The notes below the pieces were generated by a model. It worked only from the letters and a program-made list of their open reading frames with translations, was not told where the DNA came from and did no database searches. Below are positions 7,857 to 32,351 of a stretch of 35,104 bases of DNA, in pieces. Position numbers and translations under genes: made by a program. Source of the DNA: a virus; IMG/VR virus record IMGVR_UViG_3300022833_000249, positions 1-35,104 of that record. One strand, written 5' to 3'. The first letter of the stretch is position 1; each line of letters opens with the position of its first letter.

Positions 7857-8798
7857 ATGAGCGTAAAAGAATTTCTCTGGGTTGAAAAATATCGACCAAA
7901 AACCATTGAAGATTGTGTGCTACCCGAGCATATCAAGAACACCTTTCAAGAGATCGTTAACACTGGTGAGATGCATAACATGTTACTTTGTGGTACGGCT
8001 GGTCTAGGTAAGACTACCGTTGCTAAGGCATTGTGTAATGAGTTGGATCTAGACTACATGATGATTAACGCTTCTGAGGATGGTAACATTGACACACTAC
8101 GCGGCAAGATCAAACAGTTTGCATCAAGTGTATCATTGCAGGGCGGTTACAAAGTTGTTATCCTAGATGAGGCAGACTACCTTAACGCACAGTCAACTCA
8201 ACCAGCACTACGGGGTTTCATTGAAGAATTCTCAAACAACTGTCGTTTCATTATGACATGTAACTTCAAGAACCGCATTATTGAACCACTTCATAGTCGT
8301 CTTGCTGTTATTGAATTCAACATTGCAAAGAAGGATACGCCTCCATTGTTGATGAAGTTCATGAAACGACTTAAAGTTATCCTAGACACTGAAGGTGTTA
8401 AATATGATGACAAGGTACTTGCCGAGGTTATCATGAAGTTTGCTCCTGACTGGCGTCGTGTTATCAATCAATGTCAGAACTATGGTAAGACAGGTTCGAT
8501 TGATAGTGGTATGTTGTCTTGGATGAACAACTCATCGATCGACCCGTTGATCAAAGCACTAAAGGATAAAGACTTCAAGAAGATGCGTCAATGGGTTGCT
8601 GACAACATGGACTCTGATGCGTCTGCTATCTATCGCAAGATCTACGACAGTTTGTACGACCATATCCAACCTCAGTCTATCCCTCAGGTGGTGGTTACTA
8701 TTGCTGATTATCAGTACAAGGATGCATTTGTTGCAGACCATGAACTGAATACTGTTGCATGTATGACAGAGTTGATGGTTTCCACTGAGTTCAATTAA
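7857..8798 (+). CDS. 44: gp44-like clamp loader ATPase (large subunit)
   Basis: This AAA+ subunit of the clamp loader opens and loads gp45 on primed DNA. The 313-residue length is close to T4 gp44 (319). Motifs seen include an N-terminal WVEKYRP, Walker A GTAGLGKTT (about residues 45-53), Walker B VILDEADYL, and an SRL in the position of the arginine finger (HSRLAVIEF). Ribosome binding is by GGAG shortly before the ATG at 7857. gp62 follows after one small gene, so the loader genes share a transcript. Confidence 0.95.
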   Translation: MSVKEFLWVEKYRPKTIEDCVLPEHIKNTFQEIVNTGEMHNMLLCGTAGLGKTTVAKALCNELDLDYMMINASEDGNIDTLRGKIKQFASSVSLQGGYKVVILDEADYLNAQSTQPALRGFIEEFSNNCRFIMTCNFKNRIIEPLHSRLAVIEFNIAKKDTPPLLMKFMKRLKVILDTEGVKYDDKVLAEVIMKFAPDWRRVINQCQNYGKTGSIDSGMLSWMNNSSIDPLIKALKDKDFKKMRQWVADNMDSDASAIYRKIYDSLYDHIQPQSIPQVVVTIADYQYKDAFVADHELNTVACMTELMVSTEFN

Positions 8799-8988: not shown

Positions 8989-9380
8989 GCCTTAGTCCGT
9001 TTGATTATACCAATGCAATCAACATGACCAAAGAAGATATCATGGTGGATGACCTTGCTGAAAAGGCATATGCTCCATACATGGTTAATCGTTCGTTGTC
9101 GTATTTTATGGATACTGTATTACTTGCTAACGAGATGAATACTCGCCACCGCACAGACCATAAGTTACAGTTTTCTTTTTTACTAAATAGTATTCGTAAG
9201 GGTAAACGTTTCTCTAAATGGGCGAAACCTATGTTACCTGATGACATTGAAGTGGTCAAAGAATACTATGGATACAGTAATGATAAAGCCAAAGTTGCAT
9301 TGACCCTTTTGAGTGAAGAAGAATTAAAAGAACTTAGAATGAGGGTATATAAAGGTGGAACTAGAAAACTACGAAATTAA
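8985..9380 (+). CDS. 62: gp62-like clamp loader small subunit
   Basis: This is the non-ATPase clamp loader subunit. Its N-terminal pattern (SPFDYTNAINMTKEDIM, then YMVNRSLSYF and LLANEMN) matches gp62 proteins of T4-like phages. At about 131 residues it is shorter than T4 gp62 (187), as I recall is usual in environmental relatives. I chose the ATG at 8985 because AGGGAG (8971-8976) lies 8 nt upstream; the GTG at 8976 is within that site. It follows gp44 after one small ORF and precedes regA. Confidence 0.85.
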   Translation: MSLSPFDYTNAINMTKEDIMVDDLAEKAYAPYMVNRSLSYFMDTVLLANEMNTRHRTDHKLQFSFLLNSIRKGKRFSKWAKPMLPDDIEVVKEYYGYSNDKAKVALTLLSEEELKELRMRVYKGGTRKLRN

Positions 9381-9399
9381 AGGATGGACTGCCGCTTCA

Positions 9400-9786
9400 A
9401 TGCTGGAAGTTACTTTGAATGAACCAGATGATTTTTTGAAAGTGCGGGAGACTCTAACTAGAATTGGGGTTGCATCACATAAAGAAAATAAGTTATTCCA
9501 GTCATGTCATATCCTACACAAACAAGGGCGATACTTTATCGTTCACTTTAAAGAACTGTTTTTACTTGACGGTAAACCAAGTACTTTGATGTTGAATGAT
9601 ATACAGAGACGAAATACAGTTGCCACATTGTTGTCTGATTGGGGTCTTATCGACATCACAGATAATGAGATGGTTAAGGACAAGGCACATCTGCGTCAGA
9701 TAAAGGTTATATCACACAAAGATAAACACCAATGGGAGTTGTCTCCAAAATATAATATCGGATCTTCTAGACGCAAGCCTGCATAG
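9400..9786 (+). CDS. regA: RegA-like translational repressor
   Basis: RegA binds the start regions of early phage mRNAs and blocks translation, including those of gp44 and gp45 in T4. The protein from the ATG at 9400 starts MLEVTLNEPDDFLKV, aligning with the first residues of T4 RegA (MIEITLKKPEDFLKV, from memory). Later family signatures include QSCHILHKQGRY, IVHFKE and the C-terminal PKYNIG. Length is 128 residues against 122 in T4. An upstream GTG at 9355 is in frame and would add 15 residues; I prefer 9400 from family alignment, although its nearest AGGA is rather distant (about 15 nt). Confidence 0.92.
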   Translation: MLEVTLNEPDDFLKVRETLTRIGVASHKENKLFQSCHILHKQGRYFIVHFKELFLLDGKPSTLMLNDIQRRNTVATLLSDWGLIDITDNEMVKDKAHLRQIKVISHKDKHQWELSPKYNIGSSRRKPA

Positions 9787-11310: not shown

Positions 11311-11339
11311 TTTACATAAATATGATAGTATGGTATAAT
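11311..11339 (+). promoter_or_regulatory. promoter for the 11.35-11.84 kb gene pair
   Basis: TTTACA (11311-11316), 17-nt spacer, TATAAT (11334-11339) with TGG extension. The start codon at 11350 leaves a short leader (start near 11346) with little room for a ribosome binding site. Confidence 0.8.
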
Positions 11340-11349
11340 AAGGAATGTT

Positions 11350-11556
11350 ATGAAACTACTATCAATGGATACAGTAATACGAGGGAACTGGAAAATTCGC
11401 GCTTCCATAGTGCAGAATGAACAGATTCTCATTTGTATGTTTAATACTTGGACTTTCGAGACAGTAGTACGCGCATTCACCGATGAGTTGAATGCTAACT
11501 TGATGATAGAATATATTCTACATAAAAATTTATTAAAGGATGGATACGATGAATGA
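11350..11556 (+). CDS. small hypothetical protein, 68 aa
   Basis: A 68-residue protein directly under its own promoter (predicted RNA start near 11346, so the leader is only a few nt and may lack the upstream AAGGAA). It contains aromatic/hydrophobic patches (RGNWKIRASIV, then CMFNTWTFETVVRAF) consistent with a small mixed alpha/beta fold. The last 8 nt overlap the next gene at 11549. I do not recognise the family. Confidence 0.6.
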   Translation: MKLLSMDTVIRGNWKIRASIVQNEQILICMFNTWTFETVVRAFTDELNANLMIEYILHKNLLKDGYDE

Positions 11557-11885: not shown

Positions 11886-11914
11886 TTGCGTTATAACACC
11901 TTTTATGTTATAAT
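11886..11914 (+). promoter_or_regulatory. promoter for gp43 and the downstream island
   Basis: TTGCGT (11886-11891), 17-nt spacer, TATAAT (11909-11914) with TGT extension. No other good promoter was found until 20217, so this one may drive gp43 and the genes up to dadA. Confidence 0.75.
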
Positions 11915-11940
11915 GATTATATTATGTTAGAAGGTGAATG

Positions 11941-18276: not shown

Positions 18277-18660
18277 ATGGCATATTCAGCAGCAGTAGTT
18301 GAGCACTACGAAAATCCACGCAATGTGGGAAAGTTCGAAATAGACGAAACCATTGGCACCGGAATGGTTGGCGCCCCCGCTTGTGGTGATGTGATGAAGT
18401 TGCAAATCAAAGTCGTAGACGATGTTATCACTGATGCGCGTTTCAAAACATATGGGTGCGGCAGTGCTATCGCAAGTTCAAGTTTAATTACCGAAATGGT
18501 TAAGGGTATGACCCTTGATCAGGCGGCCGCCATCAAGAACAGTGAACTGGCAGAAGAACTTGCACTCCCTCCAGTTAAAATTCACTGTAGTATTTTGGCA
18601 GAGGATGCTATCAAAGCAGCAGTCGCAGACTACAGATCCAAACATGATAACACTAACTGA
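18277..18660 (+). CDS. iscU: IscU-like iron-sulfur cluster scaffold
   Basis: The 127-residue protein is very close to bacterial IscU along its whole length: [20 protein letters not shown], then [27 protein letters not shown] and [19 protein letters not shown]. The three cluster-binding cysteines and the LPPVK motif read by the HscA chaperone are intact, so it could work with the host IscS and HscA. AGAGGA precedes the ATG. It is clearly of bacterial isc-operon type and looks recently acquired. No IscS, HscA or ferredoxin gene is present. Confidence 0.95.
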
Positions 18661-20888: not shown

Positions 20889-22226
20889 ATGGTTAGAGTA
20901 GTAATAGCACCAACTAAATTTGATGCAGAACATGTGATTGGTCAGTTCATTGACGAATCTCATTACGACGAGGTTATCGATGAAGACTGCGATTTCTATG
21001 CTCCAACACCATACGGCGAAGATCCGCATGATGAAAGTCGACTGATCTTCAAGTTTCGTAAGAACGCATTCACTTCTAAAGAATACGTCGATGCATATAT
21101 CGGATTGGTTGATGCTGCCCAACCACAAACTAATCGTGGTCTTGCTGCTGGCCCTCGTGGTGAAACCGTTGGCGCCCGTGACTTTGTCAAAGCAGTAGAG
21201 TTTGATATTCTCAAGTACTTTATGGAAGACAAGACTTCTGCACTGTATGAAGATGAGATGTCTGATAGTGAACATATCAACCGAATTATCCGCAACCATG
21301 AATCCGGCGAAAATAAGGAAGACACTCGTGGTGTAGTCTGGCGACGAGGTGGTATTGAAGAAGATGGTCTTGAATATGGTAAGTGGTTTAAGCATTGGGT
21401 AGAACAGATGTGCGCACTACCAAAGAGCCAACAAGTAGAAAGGGCAAAGGACATCTATGATCGATACATTTCTGACACTTCTTATGCTGCTGCTGTTAAC
21501 AGCGGTGTTGCTGGTTACTATGATCGTTATCCTAGGTTTCCTTACGGGCGTGTCACTTCTTATAGTTTGGCAAATCCTAAGTGGACAATGGCATTACCTT
21601 ACCTCAAGAAACTTAATCAATACTTTAAAGAATTAGTCCCAGGAAAGTACGCTGCTCAAAAACATGTTGCTGATCAATTAGACCCCAAGTTCTTGGTAGA
21701 GGATACCGTGTTTACTACTATCACGGTTAACAAGAATTTCCGAACCGCAGCGCACCGAGACGCAGGTGATTTGCGCACAGGTTTCTCGAACCTCGCGGCA
21801 CTCACCGGCCCTGATAATAAAGGTTGGACAGGTGCGTATCTTACATTCCCAGAGTTTAGGGTCGCTGTTAATGTACGCCCCGGAGATTTGTTATTGGTTA
21901 ACAACCATGAAGGCATCCATGGAAACTCTGCTATCACTTCCCCCATCGAGGAATCTGACCGTTGTACATTGGTATGTTACTTCCGTGAGAACATGATGGA
22001 ACTAGGTTCATGGGAATATGAGCACATCCGTAAAGACTTTGTTGAAGGTCGCAGATTGAATAAAGAACATTCAGAATGGCGTGCTGGTTGGAATGGAGTT
22101 TCTCCTAGTATGTTCTCGTCTAAAGAATGGTATGGCTATTGTGCTGAACGAGGTGGTGTAGATATGTTGAACAAATATCATCCCAAAGCAAATGAGGTTA
22201 AATCATCACTGGAGGAATTTTTCTGA
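20889..22226 (+). CDS. TET/JBP-type 2-oxoglutarate/Fe(II) dioxygenase acting on DNA bases
   Basis: The C-terminal half carries the TET/JBP fold signature: HRD (His289, Asp291) in TAAHRDAGDLRTGF, then GAYLTFPEFRVAVNVRPGDLLL, HGN (His344) and Arg358 in DRCTLVCYFRENM. These are the Fe(II) facial triad and the 2-oxoglutarate-binding Arg. Phage TETs oxidise 5-methylcytosine to 5-hydroxymethylcytosine in DNA. The N-terminal ~200 residues are not part of that domain and their role is unknown. The protein ends KSSLEEFF, like the clamp-binding tail of gp43. A glycosyltransferase-like gene follows immediately. Confidence 0.9.
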   Translation: MVRVVIAPTKFDAEHVIGQFIDESHYDEVIDEDCDFYAPTPYGEDPHDESRLIFKFRKNAFTSKEYVDAYIGLVDAAQPQTNRGLAAGPRGETVGARDFVKAVEFDILKYFMEDKTSALYEDEMSDSEHINRIIRNHESGENKEDTRGVVWRRGGIEEDGLEYGKWFKHWVEQMCALPKSQQVERAKDIYDRYISDTSYAAAVNSGVAGYYDRYPRFPYGRVTSYSLANPKWTMALPYLKKLNQYFKELVPGKYAAQKHVADQLDPKFLVEDTVFTTITVNKNFRTAAHRDAGDLRTGFSNLAALTGPDNKGWTGAYLTFPEFRVAVNVRPGDLLLVNNHEGIHGNSAITSPIEESDRCTLVCYFRENMMELGSWEYEHIRKDFVEGRRLNKEHSEWRAGWNGVSPSMFSSKEWYGYCAERGGVDMLNKYHPKANEVKSSLEEFF

Positions 22227-22227
22227 T

Positions 22228-23034
22228 ATGATTATTACTATTCCTACTCTCATGCGTGAGGATAATCAGAAGTGTTTTAACAATATGCCACAATGGGTAA
22301 AGGATATGACCGTCCTTGCTACTCGTAGTGATCGTGTCGATGAGTTACGGAAACACAACCCATCTGCAACTATCGTCGATTTAGGTATGACCGAAGGTAT
22401 TGCGGATGTTCGCCAGCGACTGCTTGATTACGCCAAGGATGAAAAGGTGTTGATCGTTGACGACAGTTGTGTGTTTATGCAGCGTGACAGTGAATTGAAA
22501 CTATCTGAGATCACAGAAGATGGTTGGAAAGACATGTTGCATATGGTTGAAACAATGTTAGATGAGTACCCTTGGGTTGGTATTAGTGATCGTGGTGGCA
22601 ACAATCGAGTTCCAGAGGACTTCAAAGAAATTACCCGTTCATACTCTTGTTATGGTATCAATCCCGTCACTATGCGTGGACATGGAGTTAGGTTTGATGG
22701 TATGTATCAAAAGAACAATGAGATCAAACTGTATGAAGATTTCTACGCAACATTGTCTCTATTAACCAAAGGCGTGAAAAATGCAGTCATCTTTAAGTAT
22801 GCGTTTAATCATCCTCATGGTAAGCCTGGCGGTAACTCGGTGTTCAGAACCACTGACCTCCAACGAAAGTGCCTTGAAGCACTCTCAGCAGAATTTCCAG
22901 GACTTGTAAAGTTAGTTCGCAAAGAAGATCCTTCTTGGGTTACTGGAGAAGGTGAGAACTTCCGGTGGGAAGCTATTATATCATGGTCTGAAGCATATAA
23001 GGGCGGTGGTAACTCTTTAGAGGACTTCTTTTAA
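22228..23034 (+). CDS. TET-associated glycosyltransferase-like protein (GT-A type), with clamp-like C-terminal tail
   Basis: The 268-residue protein starts MIITIPTLMRED, has GIADVRQRLLDYA, then IVDDS (Asp78, Asp79, the metal/sugar-nucleotide position of GT-A enzymes), YGINPVTMRG and KLYEDFYATLSLL. The same pattern occurs in the gene at 30170 (GGIANKRQAC, VDDD, FEDIDFYLQL), so the two are paralogues of the type described as TET/JBP-associated glycosyltransferases. It probably adds a sugar to the hydroxylated cytosine. ATG 22228 (GGAGGA 11 nt upstream) is preferred to the upstream in-frame start at 22192, which overlaps the dioxygenase. The tail reads NSLEDFF. Confidence 0.75.
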   Translation: MIITIPTLMREDNQKCFNNMPQWVKDMTVLATRSDRVDELRKHNPSATIVDLGMTEGIADVRQRLLDYAKDEKVLIVDDSCVFMQRDSELKLSEITEDGWKDMLHMVETMLDEYPWVGISDRGGNNRVPEDFKEITRSYSCYGINPVTMRGHGVRFDGMYQKNNEIKLYEDFYATLSLLTKGVKNAVIFKYAFNHPHGKPGGNSVFRTTDLQRKCLEALSAEFPGLVKLVRKEDPSWVTGEGENFRWEAIISWSEAYKGGGNSLEDFF

Positions 23035-23879: not shown

Positions 23880-23908
23880 TTTACTTTATACCATTCCTGT
23901 GGTATAAT
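23880..23908 (+). promoter_or_regulatory. promoter for the primase-like to HAD operon
   Basis: TTTACT (23880-23885), 17-nt spacer, TATAAT (23903-23908) with TGG extension. An inverted repeat TTATACCA (23886-23893) / TGGTATAA (23900-23907) covers the spacer and -10 box. The predicted start near 23915 leaves a 3-nt leader. Confidence 0.78.
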
Positions 23909-23917
23909 ATCTGTATT

Positions 23918-24865
23918 ATGTACTCATTGACCATCTTCAAATCGTTATTTGATAAATACACCGACAAACGCTTGGACTTCTCCACTTGGGAGCAGTTCGA
24001 GAGCATGTTGTACGAACTATCAAAGAAACCAGGCTACAAGGGTTCTCGTGGAGACCCCAAGCAATCTTCCCCCTTAATATCCCCTGCTGTATATCATCCA
24101 GACACTACTCGTGCGAATAAGAACGTCATCGAGTGGGCCCACTGGGCTGCGGTAGACGTTGATGATCATACATTTGAAGGAGACTTACAGAATGAGCTTT
24201 ACTCTAGGTTTGGTGATTGGTATTATGTGTGTTATAGTACTGCGAGCAGCACACTTGACAGACCAAAGTTCCGACTAGTCTTCCCACTTACTACGCCTGT
24301 CGGATCCGATAACATACGACACTTCTGGTATGCCCTTAATACAGAACTTGAGTCAATCGGAGATAGACAAACTAAAGACTTCAGCAGAATGTATTACGTC
24401 CCTGCGATATATCCTAATGCTCATAATTTTATCTTCAGTAATACTGGGAATCATATCGATCCTAGTGCATTGATGGAAAAACACCCGTATGTCGAAAAGA
24501 CAGTTACGGGTAACTCGTTCTTTGATAAACTTCCTGAAGAGTTGCAGAACAAGGTTATTGAGCACCGCAAGAACCAAGCAAATAATAAAAACTTCGCATG
24601 GAAATCTTACCGAGACTGCCCATTCATTAATCGCAAGCTCCTTGCTGATTACCTTACTATCAGTGAGACCGGATGGTACTCTAAGATGTACTCGTTGATG
24701 GTTTCCATTGCAATGAACGCAGTCAAACGAGGATATCCTATTACTGCTGCTGAGATTGCTACTTTGTGTAGAGAGTTAGATATGGATAACGGTAATTGGT
24801 ATGAGAACCGTCCGATGAAAGTTGAATCAGAAAGAGCAATTGAATATGCATACCGAAACGGATAA
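23918..24865 (+). CDS. primase-like (archaeo-eukaryotic type) protein
   Basis: The 315-residue protein contains AAVDVDDHTFEG (acidic metal-binding type motif, about residues 76-87), followed by YYVCYSTASST and DRPKFRLVFPL. This order resembles the catalytic region of bifunctional AEP primase/polymerase-type proteins of phages and plasmids. The C-terminal part is helical. No gp61 primase is in the window. The mRNA is nearly leaderless (predicted 3-nt leader). I am not certain of the primase role; it could be a related AEP fold with another function. Confidence 0.5.
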   Translation: MYSLTIFKSLFDKYTDKRLDFSTWEQFESMLYELSKKPGYKGSRGDPKQSSPLISPAVYHPDTTRANKNVIEWAHWAAVDVDDHTFEGDLQNELYSRFGDWYYVCYSTASSTLDRPKFRLVFPLTTPVGSDNIRHFWYALNTELESIGDRQTKDFSRMYYVPAIYPNAHNFIFSNTGNHIDPSALMEKHPYVEKTVTGNSFFDKLPEELQNKVIEHRKNQANNKNFAWKSYRDCPFINRKLLADYLTISETGWYSKMYSLMVSIAMNAVKRGYPITAAEIATLCRELDMDNGNWYENRPMKVESERAIEYAYRNG

Positions 24866-25304
24866 TAAATGGCACACCCGATATATAAACCTTGCCAAGG
24901 AGGTTTCGGGTTGGAGTAAAGACCCTTCTCGTAAAATTGGTGCTGTTATAGTCGGAGAACATGGTCAGATATTATCACAGGGTTACAATGGATTCCCTCG
25001 TGGAGTGTTTGACTTAACCGAGAGGTACGACGATCGTCCAACGAAATATAAGTATGTTGTCCATGCTGAGATGAACGCCATTTACAACGCCACCCTAAAT
25101 GGTGTAAAATGTCAGGGTGCAGAACTATATGTCTGGGGACTACCCGTTTGTTCTGAATGTGCAAAAGGTATCATCCAAGTTGGTATCACGCATGTACATA
25201 TCCCTCAAGCTGCGTTTGGTGTCAATGTGATGTGGGATGAATCATTCGAATTCACTAAATCAATGTTTATAGAAAGCGGAGTTACCGTTACAATACATGA
25301 ATAA
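24846..25304 (+). CDS. cd: deoxycytidylate (dCMP) deaminase
   Basis: The 152-residue protein has the zinc site HAEMNAI and the PVCSEC pair, together with GYNGFPRGV, a hallmark of dCMP deaminases. The enzyme makes dUMP from dCMP, feeding thymidylate synthesis, here likely with ThyX. The ATG at 24846 overlaps the preceding gene by 20 nt; an upstream TTG at 24822 is less likely. The last codons overlap the next gene by 8 nt. At 152 aa it is shorter than T4 Cd (193). Confidence 0.92.
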   Translation: MHTETDNKWHTRYINLAKEVSGWSKDPSRKIGAVIVGEHGQILSQGYNGFPRGVFDLTERYDDRPTKYKYVVHAEMNAIYNATLNGVKCQGAELYVWGLPVCSECAKGIIQVGITHVHIPQAAFGVNVMWDESFEFTKSMFIESGVTVTIHE

Positions 25305-29967: not shown

Positions 29968-30173
29968 TGACAAGACCAATAAGTGAATATTTTTCAGATC
30001 CATGTAAGGGTTTGCGCAGGAGTGCTCAAGTTCTAACCTACGGTATGACCGGATATATGGTTAGAATGTTTGAGGAGGGGCATATCGCTAGAGAGCACCT
30101 CATTAACGAGGGACAATCATTAGATTACGCTGAGGATTGTGCTGAAAATTGGGTAACAAGAGTAATTAAATGA
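29967..30173 (+). CDS. small hypothetical protein, 68 aa
   Basis: The ATG shares an A with the gp41 stop (TAATG), and the stop overlaps the next gene by ATGA, so it is translated as part of the operon. The protein (RPISEYFSDPCKGLRRSAQV, then MVRMFEEGHIAREHLI) is mostly helical with two Cys. I do not recognise a family. Its position between the helicase and the second glycosyltransferase-like gene does not give a clear clue. Confidence 0.6.
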   Translation: MTRPISEYFSDPCKGLRRSAQVLTYGMTGYMVRMFEEGHIAREHLINEGQSLDYAEDCAENWVTRVIK

Positions 30174-30940
30174 TACCAATTTATATTCCGACAAGAGGTA
30201 CTGTAACCAAAACATACGATAACCTACCTGATTCAATTAAGAAAAGTGTTATTATGTTCACGGACAACATCGTTGACAGTATCCCTCTTGATCAACAATT
30301 ATTATTTAAAGGGGGCATTGCAAACAAGCGCCAAGCATGTATTGATCATGCTATCAAGACCAACAATGAACATATGGTACTGGTTGATGATGACGCATTA
30401 TTGTATAAGGTGATTCGTAATGAGGATGGTACACATAAAGCGGCAAAGGAACTTGCTGATGAAGAATCATACAAAAGTTTCTACGTTGATGCAATTCAAC
30501 GATTCGTTGACGACGATGCCCTGACAATTATCAGTGATCATTCTCGGGCGTTTATCAATGGTAAAAATGAAACGAATAGTAACCTAAACAAATTTTGTAT
30601 TCACGATCTTGCCAAGGTTAAAAAGAGTGGGTGCGTATATAACCGAATAACTATATTCGAGGATATTGATTTTTACCTACAGTTATTCAGAGCAGGTTAT
30701 TCAGTGCGTAGAACAAAAATTATATCTTCAATCAATGATTCGAGTGATTATGTTGATATGAGTCCAGATAAATACACCGCAGTGTTCTTAGATTGGCAAG
30801 AGCACTTTCATCACAACGTAAAGATAACATGGGATACAGCCTCTATATTTGCTGGCAATAAAAGAGTTCCAGTAACAGTTAATATCAAATGGAAACCTAT
30901 GGTATATGAAACCGTGGATTTAAATAATTTTTTTGAATAA
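30170..30940 (+). CDS. second GT-A glycosyltransferase-like protein with clamp-like C-terminal tail
   Basis: The 256-residue protein begins MIPIYIPTRGTVTKTYDNLP and has GGIANKRQACIDHA, then VLVDDD (Asp73-Asp75, donor-binding position), and TIFEDIDFYLQLFRAGYSVRR near the middle, all paralleled in the gene at 22228. These fit the TET-associated GT-A family. It ends TVDLNNFFE, a weaker version of the polymerase tail. It lies between a small gene and thyX, away from the dioxygenase, so the two paralogues may add different sugars or act in sequence. Substrates cannot be read from sequence. Confidence 0.7.
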   Translation: MIPIYIPTRGTVTKTYDNLPDSIKKSVIMFTDNIVDSIPLDQQLLFKGGIANKRQACIDHAIKTNNEHMVLVDDDALLYKVIRNEDGTHKAAKELADEESYKSFYVDAIQRFVDDDALTIISDHSRAFINGKNETNSNLNKFCIHDLAKVKKSGCVYNRITIFEDIDFYLQLFRAGYSVRRTKIISSINDSSDYVDMSPDKYTAVFLDWQEHFHHNVKITWDTASIFAGNKRVPVTVNIKWKPMVYETVDLNNFFE

Positions 30941-30948
30941 GGCATAAT

Positions 30949-31620
30949 ATGGAAGTAAAGCTAGTAGCATATACGCAACCCACAGAAGAGTTTGCGGTTA
31001 AAGGAGTAGAAGATGTACAAGACCTCATTGCATTCTGCGCAAAAGTGTCAAATCCATCAGGGCAGTTCGACCTAGAAACTTCTGAGCGACTTATTAGGTA
31101 TTTGGTCAAGCACCAGCACTGGAGCCCCTTGGAAATGGCTAGTGCCACTTTGGAAATCACCACTACACGTGATATTGCCCGACAAATTCTACGACATAGA
31201 TCTTTCACGTTTCAGGAGTTCAGTCAGCGATACGCAGACCCGACCAAAGACTTAGACTTTGTTATTCGTGAAGCACGACTACAGGACACCAAGAACCGTC
31301 AGAACAGTATTGAGACCGATGACTTTGCCCTTACCGTATGGTGGACGGCAGAACAGCAACGCATTATCGAACTAGTACAAAGTACTTACAAACAGGCAAT
31401 TGAGCGTGGTATTGCTAAGGAACAGGCTAGAGCGATCCTCCCCGAGGGTAACACAGTGTCTAGAATGTATGTACAGGGTAGTATCAGGTCTTGGGTACAT
31501 TTTATAGCTCTCAGATCCGGTAACGGGACTCAGAAGGAACATATGGAGGTAGCCAGGGCAGTGGCAGGGGTGATTGCTAAAATCTTCCCTATGGGGTCTG
31601 AGTTCATCGCAGATATGTAA
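30949..31620 (+). CDS. thyX: FAD-dependent thymidylate synthase ThyX
   Basis: ThyX makes dTMP from dUMP with methylene-tetrahydrofolate and FAD. The 223-residue protein carries the diagnostic RHR-x7-S motif, RHRSFTFQEFSQRY. The RHQ-like variation LVKHQHWSPLEM fits its N-terminal active-site loop. It works with dCMP deaminase, encoded upstream. An AAGG site is weak (ATAAGGCATAAT). It is the last gene before the terminator at 31652. Confidence 0.95.
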   Translation: MEVKLVAYTQPTEEFAVKGVEDVQDLIAFCAKVSNPSGQFDLETSERLIRYLVKHQHWSPLEMASATLEITTTRDIARQILRHRSFTFQEFSQRYADPTKDLDFVIREARLQDTKNRQNSIETDDFALTVWWTAEQQRIIELVQSTYKQAIERGIAKEQARAILPEGNTVSRMYVQGSIRSWVHFIALRSGNGTQKEHMEVARAVAGVIAKIFPMGSEFIADM

Positions 31621-31651
31621 TATTTTAGTATTAAGTTGTTTTAAAACCACA

Positions 31652-31684
31652 AAATACCCCTACACTTGCATGGGGTATTTTTTT
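31652..31684 (+). terminator. terminator after thyX with the next -35 box in its loop
   Basis: AAATACCCC (31652-31660) pairs with GGGGTATTT (31672-31680), a perfect 9-bp stem with an 11-nt loop, followed by TTTT. The loop contains TTGCAT (31666-31671), the -35 box of the next promoter. Confidence 0.8.
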
Positions 31685-31694
31685 ATGTTATACT
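31666..31694 (+). promoter_or_regulatory. promoter giving a leaderless mRNA for the 46-aa gene
   Basis: TTGCAT (31666-31671), 17-nt spacer, TATACT (31689-31694) with TGT extension. Seven nt after the -10 box lies the A of the ATG at 31701, so transcription should start at the start codon. Confidence 0.75.
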
Positions 31695-31700
31695 TCATTC

Positions 31701-31841
31701 ATGAATTCAAAAAGCAATACCCGCTACCTAATCCACTTCAGTGGTACTACTATGGTATTCACTGTCAAGGCATGTGCGGAACTCTATGGAGGAATGTACA
31801 ATACTCAAGTCGTTGAGGTACTGGTTTCTAATGACACCTAA
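31701..31841 (+). CDS. small hypothetical protein, 46 aa, predicted leaderless
   Basis: The 46-codon ORF starts MNSKSNTRYLIHF and ends LVSNDT. The promoter at 31666 places the transcription start on its ATG, so the mRNA would have no leader and no ribosome binding site. It is flanked by two hairpin-promoter elements as a one-gene unit. I do not recognise the family. Being bracketed by its own promoter and terminator-like signal supports its reality. Confidence 0.55.
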   Translation: MNSKSNTRYLIHFSGTTMVFTVKACAELYGGMYNTQVVEVLVSNDT

Positions 31842-31863
31842 CCGTTGTTTTTTTACAACAATA

Positions 31864-31888
31864 ATAACCCTACATTTGCAGGGGTTAT
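31864..31888 (+). terminator. hairpin after the 46-aa gene with the next -35 box in its loop
   Basis: ATAACCC (31864-31870) pairs with GGGTTAT (31882-31888) around an 11-nt loop containing TTGCAG (31876-31881). A second short hairpin GTTGT/ACAAC with a six-T loop lies at 31844-31859. The architecture copies the element at 31652. Confidence 0.6.
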
Positions 31889-31904
31889 CAAATTGTGTTA
31901 TACT
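31876..31904 (+). promoter_or_regulatory. promoter giving a leaderless mRNA for the SprT-like gene
   Basis: TTGCAG (31876-31881), 17-nt spacer, TATACT (31899-31904) with TGT extension. The predicted +1 is 31911, the A of the start codon. Confidence 0.72.
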
Positions 31905-31910
31905 AGCTTC

Positions 31911-32351
31911 ATGATAAAAATTAATTTCAATAGTTATATCAAGGGTACAGATCGTGCTCTTGTCCGTCGCGCAGTAGAATTCTTCATGCAGGAAGTCGTA
32001 ACTGAGCGTAAGATTAATAATACCCATCTGACACTGAGTTTCCGCTCAATGGAAGATAGTGGTATGTGTTCAGTATCTGATGATGACAATGTTTCGCGTC
32101 CAACTTGTTTTGATATGGACGTTGATGGTAAATTATCAATCAAGGAAATATTGATCACAATTGCACACGAAATGGTCCACTTGGGTCAGTTTCGCAACCA
32201 GAAATTGTTCATGAGTTATACCAGATTCAAATTCAATGGTAAGGTCTACCGCACGGATTGTTCATACAAGAACCAACCGTGGGAGAAAGAGGCATACCGC
32301 ATGGAAAAAGTATTGTATCGTAAATTTATTAAGGAAGAATCATCACTATGA
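31911..32351 (+). CDS. SprT-like zinc metallopeptidase-type protein
   Basis: From the ATG at 31911 the protein has 146 residues. It carries HEMVHLGQ (HExxH zinc motif, about residues 84-91) in a SprT/M78-like setting, followed by Arg/Tyr-rich segments and CSYKNQPWEKEA. SprT-like proteins are proteases or peptidase-like proteins acting at DNA-protein crosslinks, among others; the phage role is unknown. The promoter at 31876 predicts an mRNA starting exactly at this ATG, so upstream in-frame starts (31845) are rejected. The following 45-aa gene overlaps the stop by ATGA. Confidence 0.8.
   Translation: MIKINFNSYIKGTDRALVRRAVEFFMQEVVTERKINNTHLTLSFRSMEDSGMCSVSDDDNVSRPTCFDMDVDGKLSIKEILITIAHEMVHLGQFRNQKLFMSYTRFKFNGKVYRTDCSYKNQPWEKEAYRMEKVLYRKFIKEESSL

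Follow-up and report, generated by a model that had tools for sequence, protein, structure and literature searches.

Promoter and gene layout in the window

The window, meaning the whole stretch of DNA that was analysed, is a 35,104-base IMG/VR virus record in which all 45 script-called genes lie on the + strand. Its T4-type family matches include the sliding clamp, clamp loader, RegA, gp43, UvsX, a DnaB-like helicase and ThyX. Proteins matching HMC-glucosyltransferase-type families are encoded at 22192-23034 and 30170-30940, and a cytidine/dCMP deaminase family match lies at 24822-25304; judging by these matches, the phage DNA may be modified.

Two + strand frames, a 46-aa open frame (31701..31841) and a 146-aa HExxH (SprT-like) putative metallopeptidase (31911..32351), are preceded at very short distance by promoter-like sequences. 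At 31701 the -35-like box TTGCAT (31666-31671) is followed by a 17-nt spacer, TGn-TATACT (TG extension 31686-31687, -10 box 31689-31694), tcattc and the ATG; at 31911 the order is TTGCAG (31876-31881), a 17-nt spacer, TGn-TATACT (-10 box 31899-31904), agcttc and the ATG. The number of bases between the -10 box and the start codon, here termed d in the window and in relatives, is 6 in both cases, confirming an earlier remark that the A of each ATG is the seventh base after the -10 box. Both -35 boxes are poor matches to TTGACA.

Two further starts have the same layout. A 315-aa protein of the phage DNA primase families (phrog_9765; 23918..24865, + strand) is preceded by TTTACT (23880-23885), a 17-nt spacer, TGn-TATAAT (23903-23908) and atctgtatt (d=9). 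The 3-nt leader proposed for it in the preliminary description holds as a prediction, being what a transcript begun at the seventh base after the -10 box would carry. At 11350, a start absent from that description, a promoter with a TG extension (11311..11339, + strand) reads TTTACA-17-TATAAT-aaggaatgtt-ATG (d=10), and TAAGGA sits between the -10 box and the expected +1. The described lack of a ribosome binding site was borne out at 31701 and 31911 and holds also at 23918: no Shine-Dalgarno (SD) match of at least 4 bases to TAAGGAGGTGA occurs in -18..-4 of these starts; such a match is present at 31 of the 52 window starts and absent from 21. AUG is the start codon at 31701 and 31911, and the scans of relatives described below demanded ATG and are hence no test of AUG use.

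Hairpin and promoter cassettes

Both promoters are interlocked with hairpins. A terminator-like hairpin, AAAATACCCC / 11-nt loop / GGGGTATTTT, followed by a T-run, occupies 31651..31684 (+ strand) and carries the -35 box (31666-31671) in its loop; the isolated strand folds at -12.8 kcal/mol. The second hairpin, ATAACCCT / ACATTTGCA / GGGGTTAT (31864..31888, + strand), has a loop that takes in most of the -35 box, and it lacks a T-run. Hairpin and promoter thus form one short unit, present twice in the window, and four similar units were found in the related contigs G003/G005 (at 18538, 18698, 23894 and 24363 of G003). Contigs G003-G005 share cassettes with the window without any long DNA match to it. 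Sister cassettes in these contigs lead into a normal leader (TATACT-agtatc-ATAG...AAAGG...ATG and TATACT-gaactc...AAGGAG...ATG), and one unit with an unrelated stem is followed by an ATG at once (TATAAT-agcttc-ATG), which opens a 43-codon frame.

Promoter-early stem-loop cassettes (PeSLs) have reportedly been described by Arbiol (2010) and Comeau (2014). In PMC4503421, PeSLs of T4-like phages are mentioned as cassettes of a stem-loop and an early promoter. The window cassettes at 31701 and 31911 resemble them in sequence layout, each being a short composite of a stem-loop and a host-like early promoter repeated between genes. They may differ from described PeSLs in that the ATG lies at the predicted +1, so that the cassette brings no leader.

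Position of promoters relative to start codons

The window has 60 generic promoters against 58.0 expected, no excess over chance, and the generic terminator count likewise equalled chance, therefore position relative to the ATG was used as the test. One fixed promoter criterion was applied to 52 window starts; for comparison, the 80 nt upstream of each start were dinucleotide-shuffled 2000 times. A promoter at d=6 was observed before 2 of the 52 starts, against a shuffled mean of 0.0365 and a maximum of 1, and at d=6-10 before 4 of the 52, against a mean of 0.152 and a maximum of 2; no shuffle in 2000 reached the observed value in either case. The non-random feature is the position of promoters relative to start codons, not their number.

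Close relatives contribute little on this point. L002 is the same virus (99.5% identity), G002 is 99.9% identical and L003 is 97-98% identical over the matching parts; the near-identical DNA of L002 and L003 at 31701 and 31911 adds little evidence of conservation. Between 31400 and 32500 no blastn match to the DNA was found in the phage collection. L003 carries an insert beside thyX (L003:3763-4422) on the opposite strand, with the 3' end of thyX present twice; judged by eye, the insert resembles a GIY-YIG homing endonuclease frame.

In four more distant relatives (G006, G007, G009 and G010), 11 of 194 starts were preceded by a strong promoter at d=6-10, compared with 0.155 expected and a maximum of 2 in 200 shuffles. 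The distances were bimodal, with none at d=0-5 or d=11-15 and 25 at d=16-45. Two of the 11, at 8209 and 22164 of G007, were dropped as leaderless candidates, since an SD-led Met 12 nt downstream matches the orthologues. The remaining nine comprise the primase (four records), a gene whose product has the N-terminus of a nucleotide-sugar epimerase (two records) and three others. Two further cases lay outside the called starts: uvsY at G007:5724 (d=7), for which the caller had picked a later Met, and a frame of 184 codons at G010:5083, which the gene-calling script had not called. The epimerase in G006 and G007 and uvsY in G007 have no predicted leader, whereas in G010 both genes have a leader with an SD, uvsY at d=42 and the epimerase at d=21. 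The same d=6-10 test gave 2 cases against 0.09 expected in the group formed by the window and G003-G005, and none against 0.07 expected for the called starts of phage C48C1. When all in-frame ATGs of C48C1 were allowed, the primase (d=6) and gp43, the DNA polymerase (d=7), appeared, and these ATGs are the starts annotated by the depositors.

In 25 T4-type record sets, a start lay no more than 70 nt from 219 strong intergenic promoters. The distance d was 0-5 for 11 of them, 6-10 for 38, 11-15 for 14 and greater for the rest. The figure of 38 is an upper count, as several of these starts have a second, perhaps SD-led, Met nearby and some sets are related. Four sets were partial (P-SSM2, 180/252 kb; G008, 119/178 kb; C48C1, 150/156 kb; KVP40, 20/245 kb), and the 25 leave out G005, which overlaps G003/G004, and G017, which entered the pattern scan only. 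By this measure d=6-10 accounted for 2 of 23 promoters in C48C1, 0 of 11 in T4 and 0 of 6 in Syn9, and a small number of candidate starts was seen in HTVC008M and P-SSM2. T4 early promoters are like those described here in being sigma-70-type promoters of a T4-type phage, but differ in that T4 has no d=6-10 case among its 11 and the window has such cases. In L304 and in G020 (L258:11503), d=6 was also seen at a gene that is metallophosphoesterase-like by its SDLHLE motif, recognised by eye; a frame similar to it, at G003:9245, has a leader with an SD.

A wider scan of IMG/VR used the pattern TTKACW-N15-TGN-TATAAT-N(d)-ATG, with near-identical upstream sequences collapsed and short frames running off a contig dropped. 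The scan was complete at d=3, where 5 of the 63 distinct matches had an ATG opening a frame of at least 60 codons. At the other distances, among the 120 matches listed for each, a sample that may be non-random, d=6 gave such a frame in 44 of 92 distinct cases, d=8 in 29 of 85 and d=12 in 15 of 75 (Fisher, among the matches listed: d=6 vs d=3, p=6e-8; d=6 vs d=12, p=2e-4). For d=8 the pattern itself dictates an upstream in-frame stop, which was given no weight. The d=6 and d=8 matches listed together gave 73 long frames, of which 11 matched a chosen reference protein; UvsY, gp43, gp44 and primase were among these, and the N-termini were in register. These data indicate that the arrangement is real and recurring and not a local accident.

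The primase and SprT-like genes

For the primase, a promoter abutting the ATG (d=6-9) was present in 10 of the 16 distinct upstream sequences listed, namely those of the window, G006, L091, L092, L093, G009, G010, phage C48C1, L307 and L339. L307 and L339 were retrieved by the promoter pattern itself and are not independent; protein similarity led to the other eight, among which G006, L091, L092 and L093 are fairly close to one another. L527, likewise retrieved by pattern, has d=8. Start codons were in register across the records with an ATG-abutting promoter. The six upstream sequences without a promoter (L114, L098, L100, L105, L101 and L112) have the start at or beside the stop of the preceding gene. 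Among the 20 primase loci listed of 27, many relatives start at the stop of the upstream gene with no promoter, these being L094, L098, L099, L102, L103, L105-L107, L109, L112 and L114.

The name "SprT-like", given earlier to the gene at 31911, is reasonable in that the HExxH zinc motif is present, with H86, E87 and H90 invariant in eight aligned sequences; the profile match does not support it significantly, Spartan (6mdx) being matched weakly at E 1.1 only and no SprT-family match being found in Pfam up to E 10. The N-termini of the homologues fit a start at 31911. Two of them, L017 and L020, have TATAAT-6nt-ATG, in which a clear -35 box at standard spacing was not established. Among the 50 SprT-like loci listed of 80, one of which is without a start, most homologues have an SD-like sequence before the start.

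Predicted leaderless transcripts and alternative explanations

Sigma-70 RNA polymerase initiates about 7 nt after the -10 box and prefers a purine that follows a pyrimidine, a preference satisfied by C(-1)A(+1) before and at the ATG of 31701 and of 31911. A host-type sigma-70 promoter would place the transcription start on the ATG, or no more than about 3 nt from it, at 31911, at 23918 and probably at 31701. This supposes use of the promoters at 31701, 31911 and 23918, a +1 at the A of the ATG and translation from the 5'-terminal AUG. If the hairpins also terminate transcription, the one at 31701 being a likely terminator, then, with the -35 box held in the loop at 31701 and 31911, the upstream message would stop, and the next one begin at its ATG, within one short stretch between genes. 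The best explanation of the layout, and one that we consider probable, is that the mRNAs at 31911, 23918 and probably 31701 are leaderless or have leaders of 0-3 nt. This prediction is well supported because the shuffles, the relatives, the in-register N-termini and the sister cassettes agree.

It is unlikely, though worth weighing, that promoters further upstream dominate, the near ones being weak or fortuitous, and that translation relies on a longer leader without an SD, on coupling or on A-U-rich recognition. The frequency of SD-less starts in the window, the promoterless primase relatives and the missing T-run of the second hairpin are all in keeping with such an arrangement; because that T-run is missing, transcription from the 31701 promoter could also reach the SprT-like gene. 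However, a hairpin with a T-run stands directly 5' of 31701, and the exact spacing exceeds that in the shuffles and is repeated at the primase across relatives. Still less probable, and in our view very much so, is that translation truly begins at codons downstream of the first ATG, which would then be incidental. That account does hold for the two G007 starts that were dropped, but for the products of 31911 and 23918 the alignment with homologues begins at residues 1-5, and neither has a later ATG near its N-terminus.

The 46-aa frame is the weakest part of the finding and, being only weakly supported, may not be a gene. There is an appreciable chance, short of even, that the promoters are real and this frame is not translated, the 31701 promoter then serving an untranslated leader or a longer SprT-like message. 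The codon-based gene caller did not accept the frame, it has no PHROG or Pfam match, and only 5 differences separate two close variants, 3 of them non-synonymous. Against this, the frame is 96% identical in L003, compared with only 81% for a competing, overlapping frame of 43 aa that begins at 31685. Over 31612-31700, L003 differs from the window at 4 bases, all within the 16 bases of 31685-31700, and these changes spare the TG, TATACT, the spacing and the ATG; the pattern is suggestive, in a small sample. Absence of a gene here would leave 31911 and 23918 untouched.

Translation, RegA and the occurrence of predicted leaderless starts

The mRNA of lambda cI is the model leaderless mRNA. On leaderless mRNAs 70S ribosomes initiate at the 5'-terminal AUG, according to PMC9031893, and by analogy the predicted leaderless mRNAs of the window would be initiated in this way. 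Kasugamycin reportedly spares leaderless transcripts but not SD-led ones (PMC5230787). The window encodes a homologue of the RegA-type translation repressor (9355..9786, + strand; phrog_242, E 1.9e-60). T4 RegA recognises sites with a 5' A-tract that are situated across the AUG or immediately 5' to it (PMC3014915). Escape from RegA, as had been proposed, is plausible by this analogy because a leaderless mRNA would keep the AUG and lose the 5' part of the site.

The window starts are similar to the TA-led genes defined in PMC3160421 by a -10-like signal about 10-12 bp before the ATG and no SD, as they too combine a -10 signal, an ATG and no SD. Unlike known leaderless mRNAs, those predicted here belong to T4-type phages, often precede replication genes and form a distance peak apart from that of SD-led genes. 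Published accounts call leaderless mRNAs rare in enterobacteria (PMC9031893), describe T4 translation control via ribosome-binding regions and RegA (PMC3014915) and call phage transcripts "often leaderless" (PMC5312081). No description of leaderless transcripts in T4-type phages was found in titles and the openings of abstracts, the subscription literature lying mostly outside reach.

That a family-wide leaderless regulon of T4-type phages, its early or middle replication genes (primase, gp43, gp44, UvsY) being placed at the +1 of host-type promoters, uses a translation route different from that of SD-led phage and host mRNAs, escapes RegA and is favoured when the phage changes the host ribosomes is a speculative idea that we regard as improbable. 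T4-type core genes with a promoter-abutting ATG, together with the leadered orthologues of uvsY and the epimerase, offer a system in which the worth of a leader could be measured. Promoter-abutting ATGs also matter for gene callers that score starts by SD.

A phage-encoded ribosomal protein bS21 was found at G006:11251-11385, G007:29302-29442, G010:28461-28604 and G020:48642-48797, and also in HTVC008M and Melnitz, making 6 of the 32 distinct records searched; among these records it was not found in C48C1, T4 or Syn9. Contigs rich in predicted leaderless starts (G006, G007 and G020) carry bS21. It was not adopted as the cause of such starts, as C48C1 has two of them without bS21 and the records are related.

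A further observation concerns 11909-11940 of the window. There, an ATG lying 9 nt past the gp43 promoter begins a frame of 5 codons, the TGA of which overlaps the ATG of the DNA polymerase; it may be a coupled, leaderless upstream frame, or may have arisen by chance.
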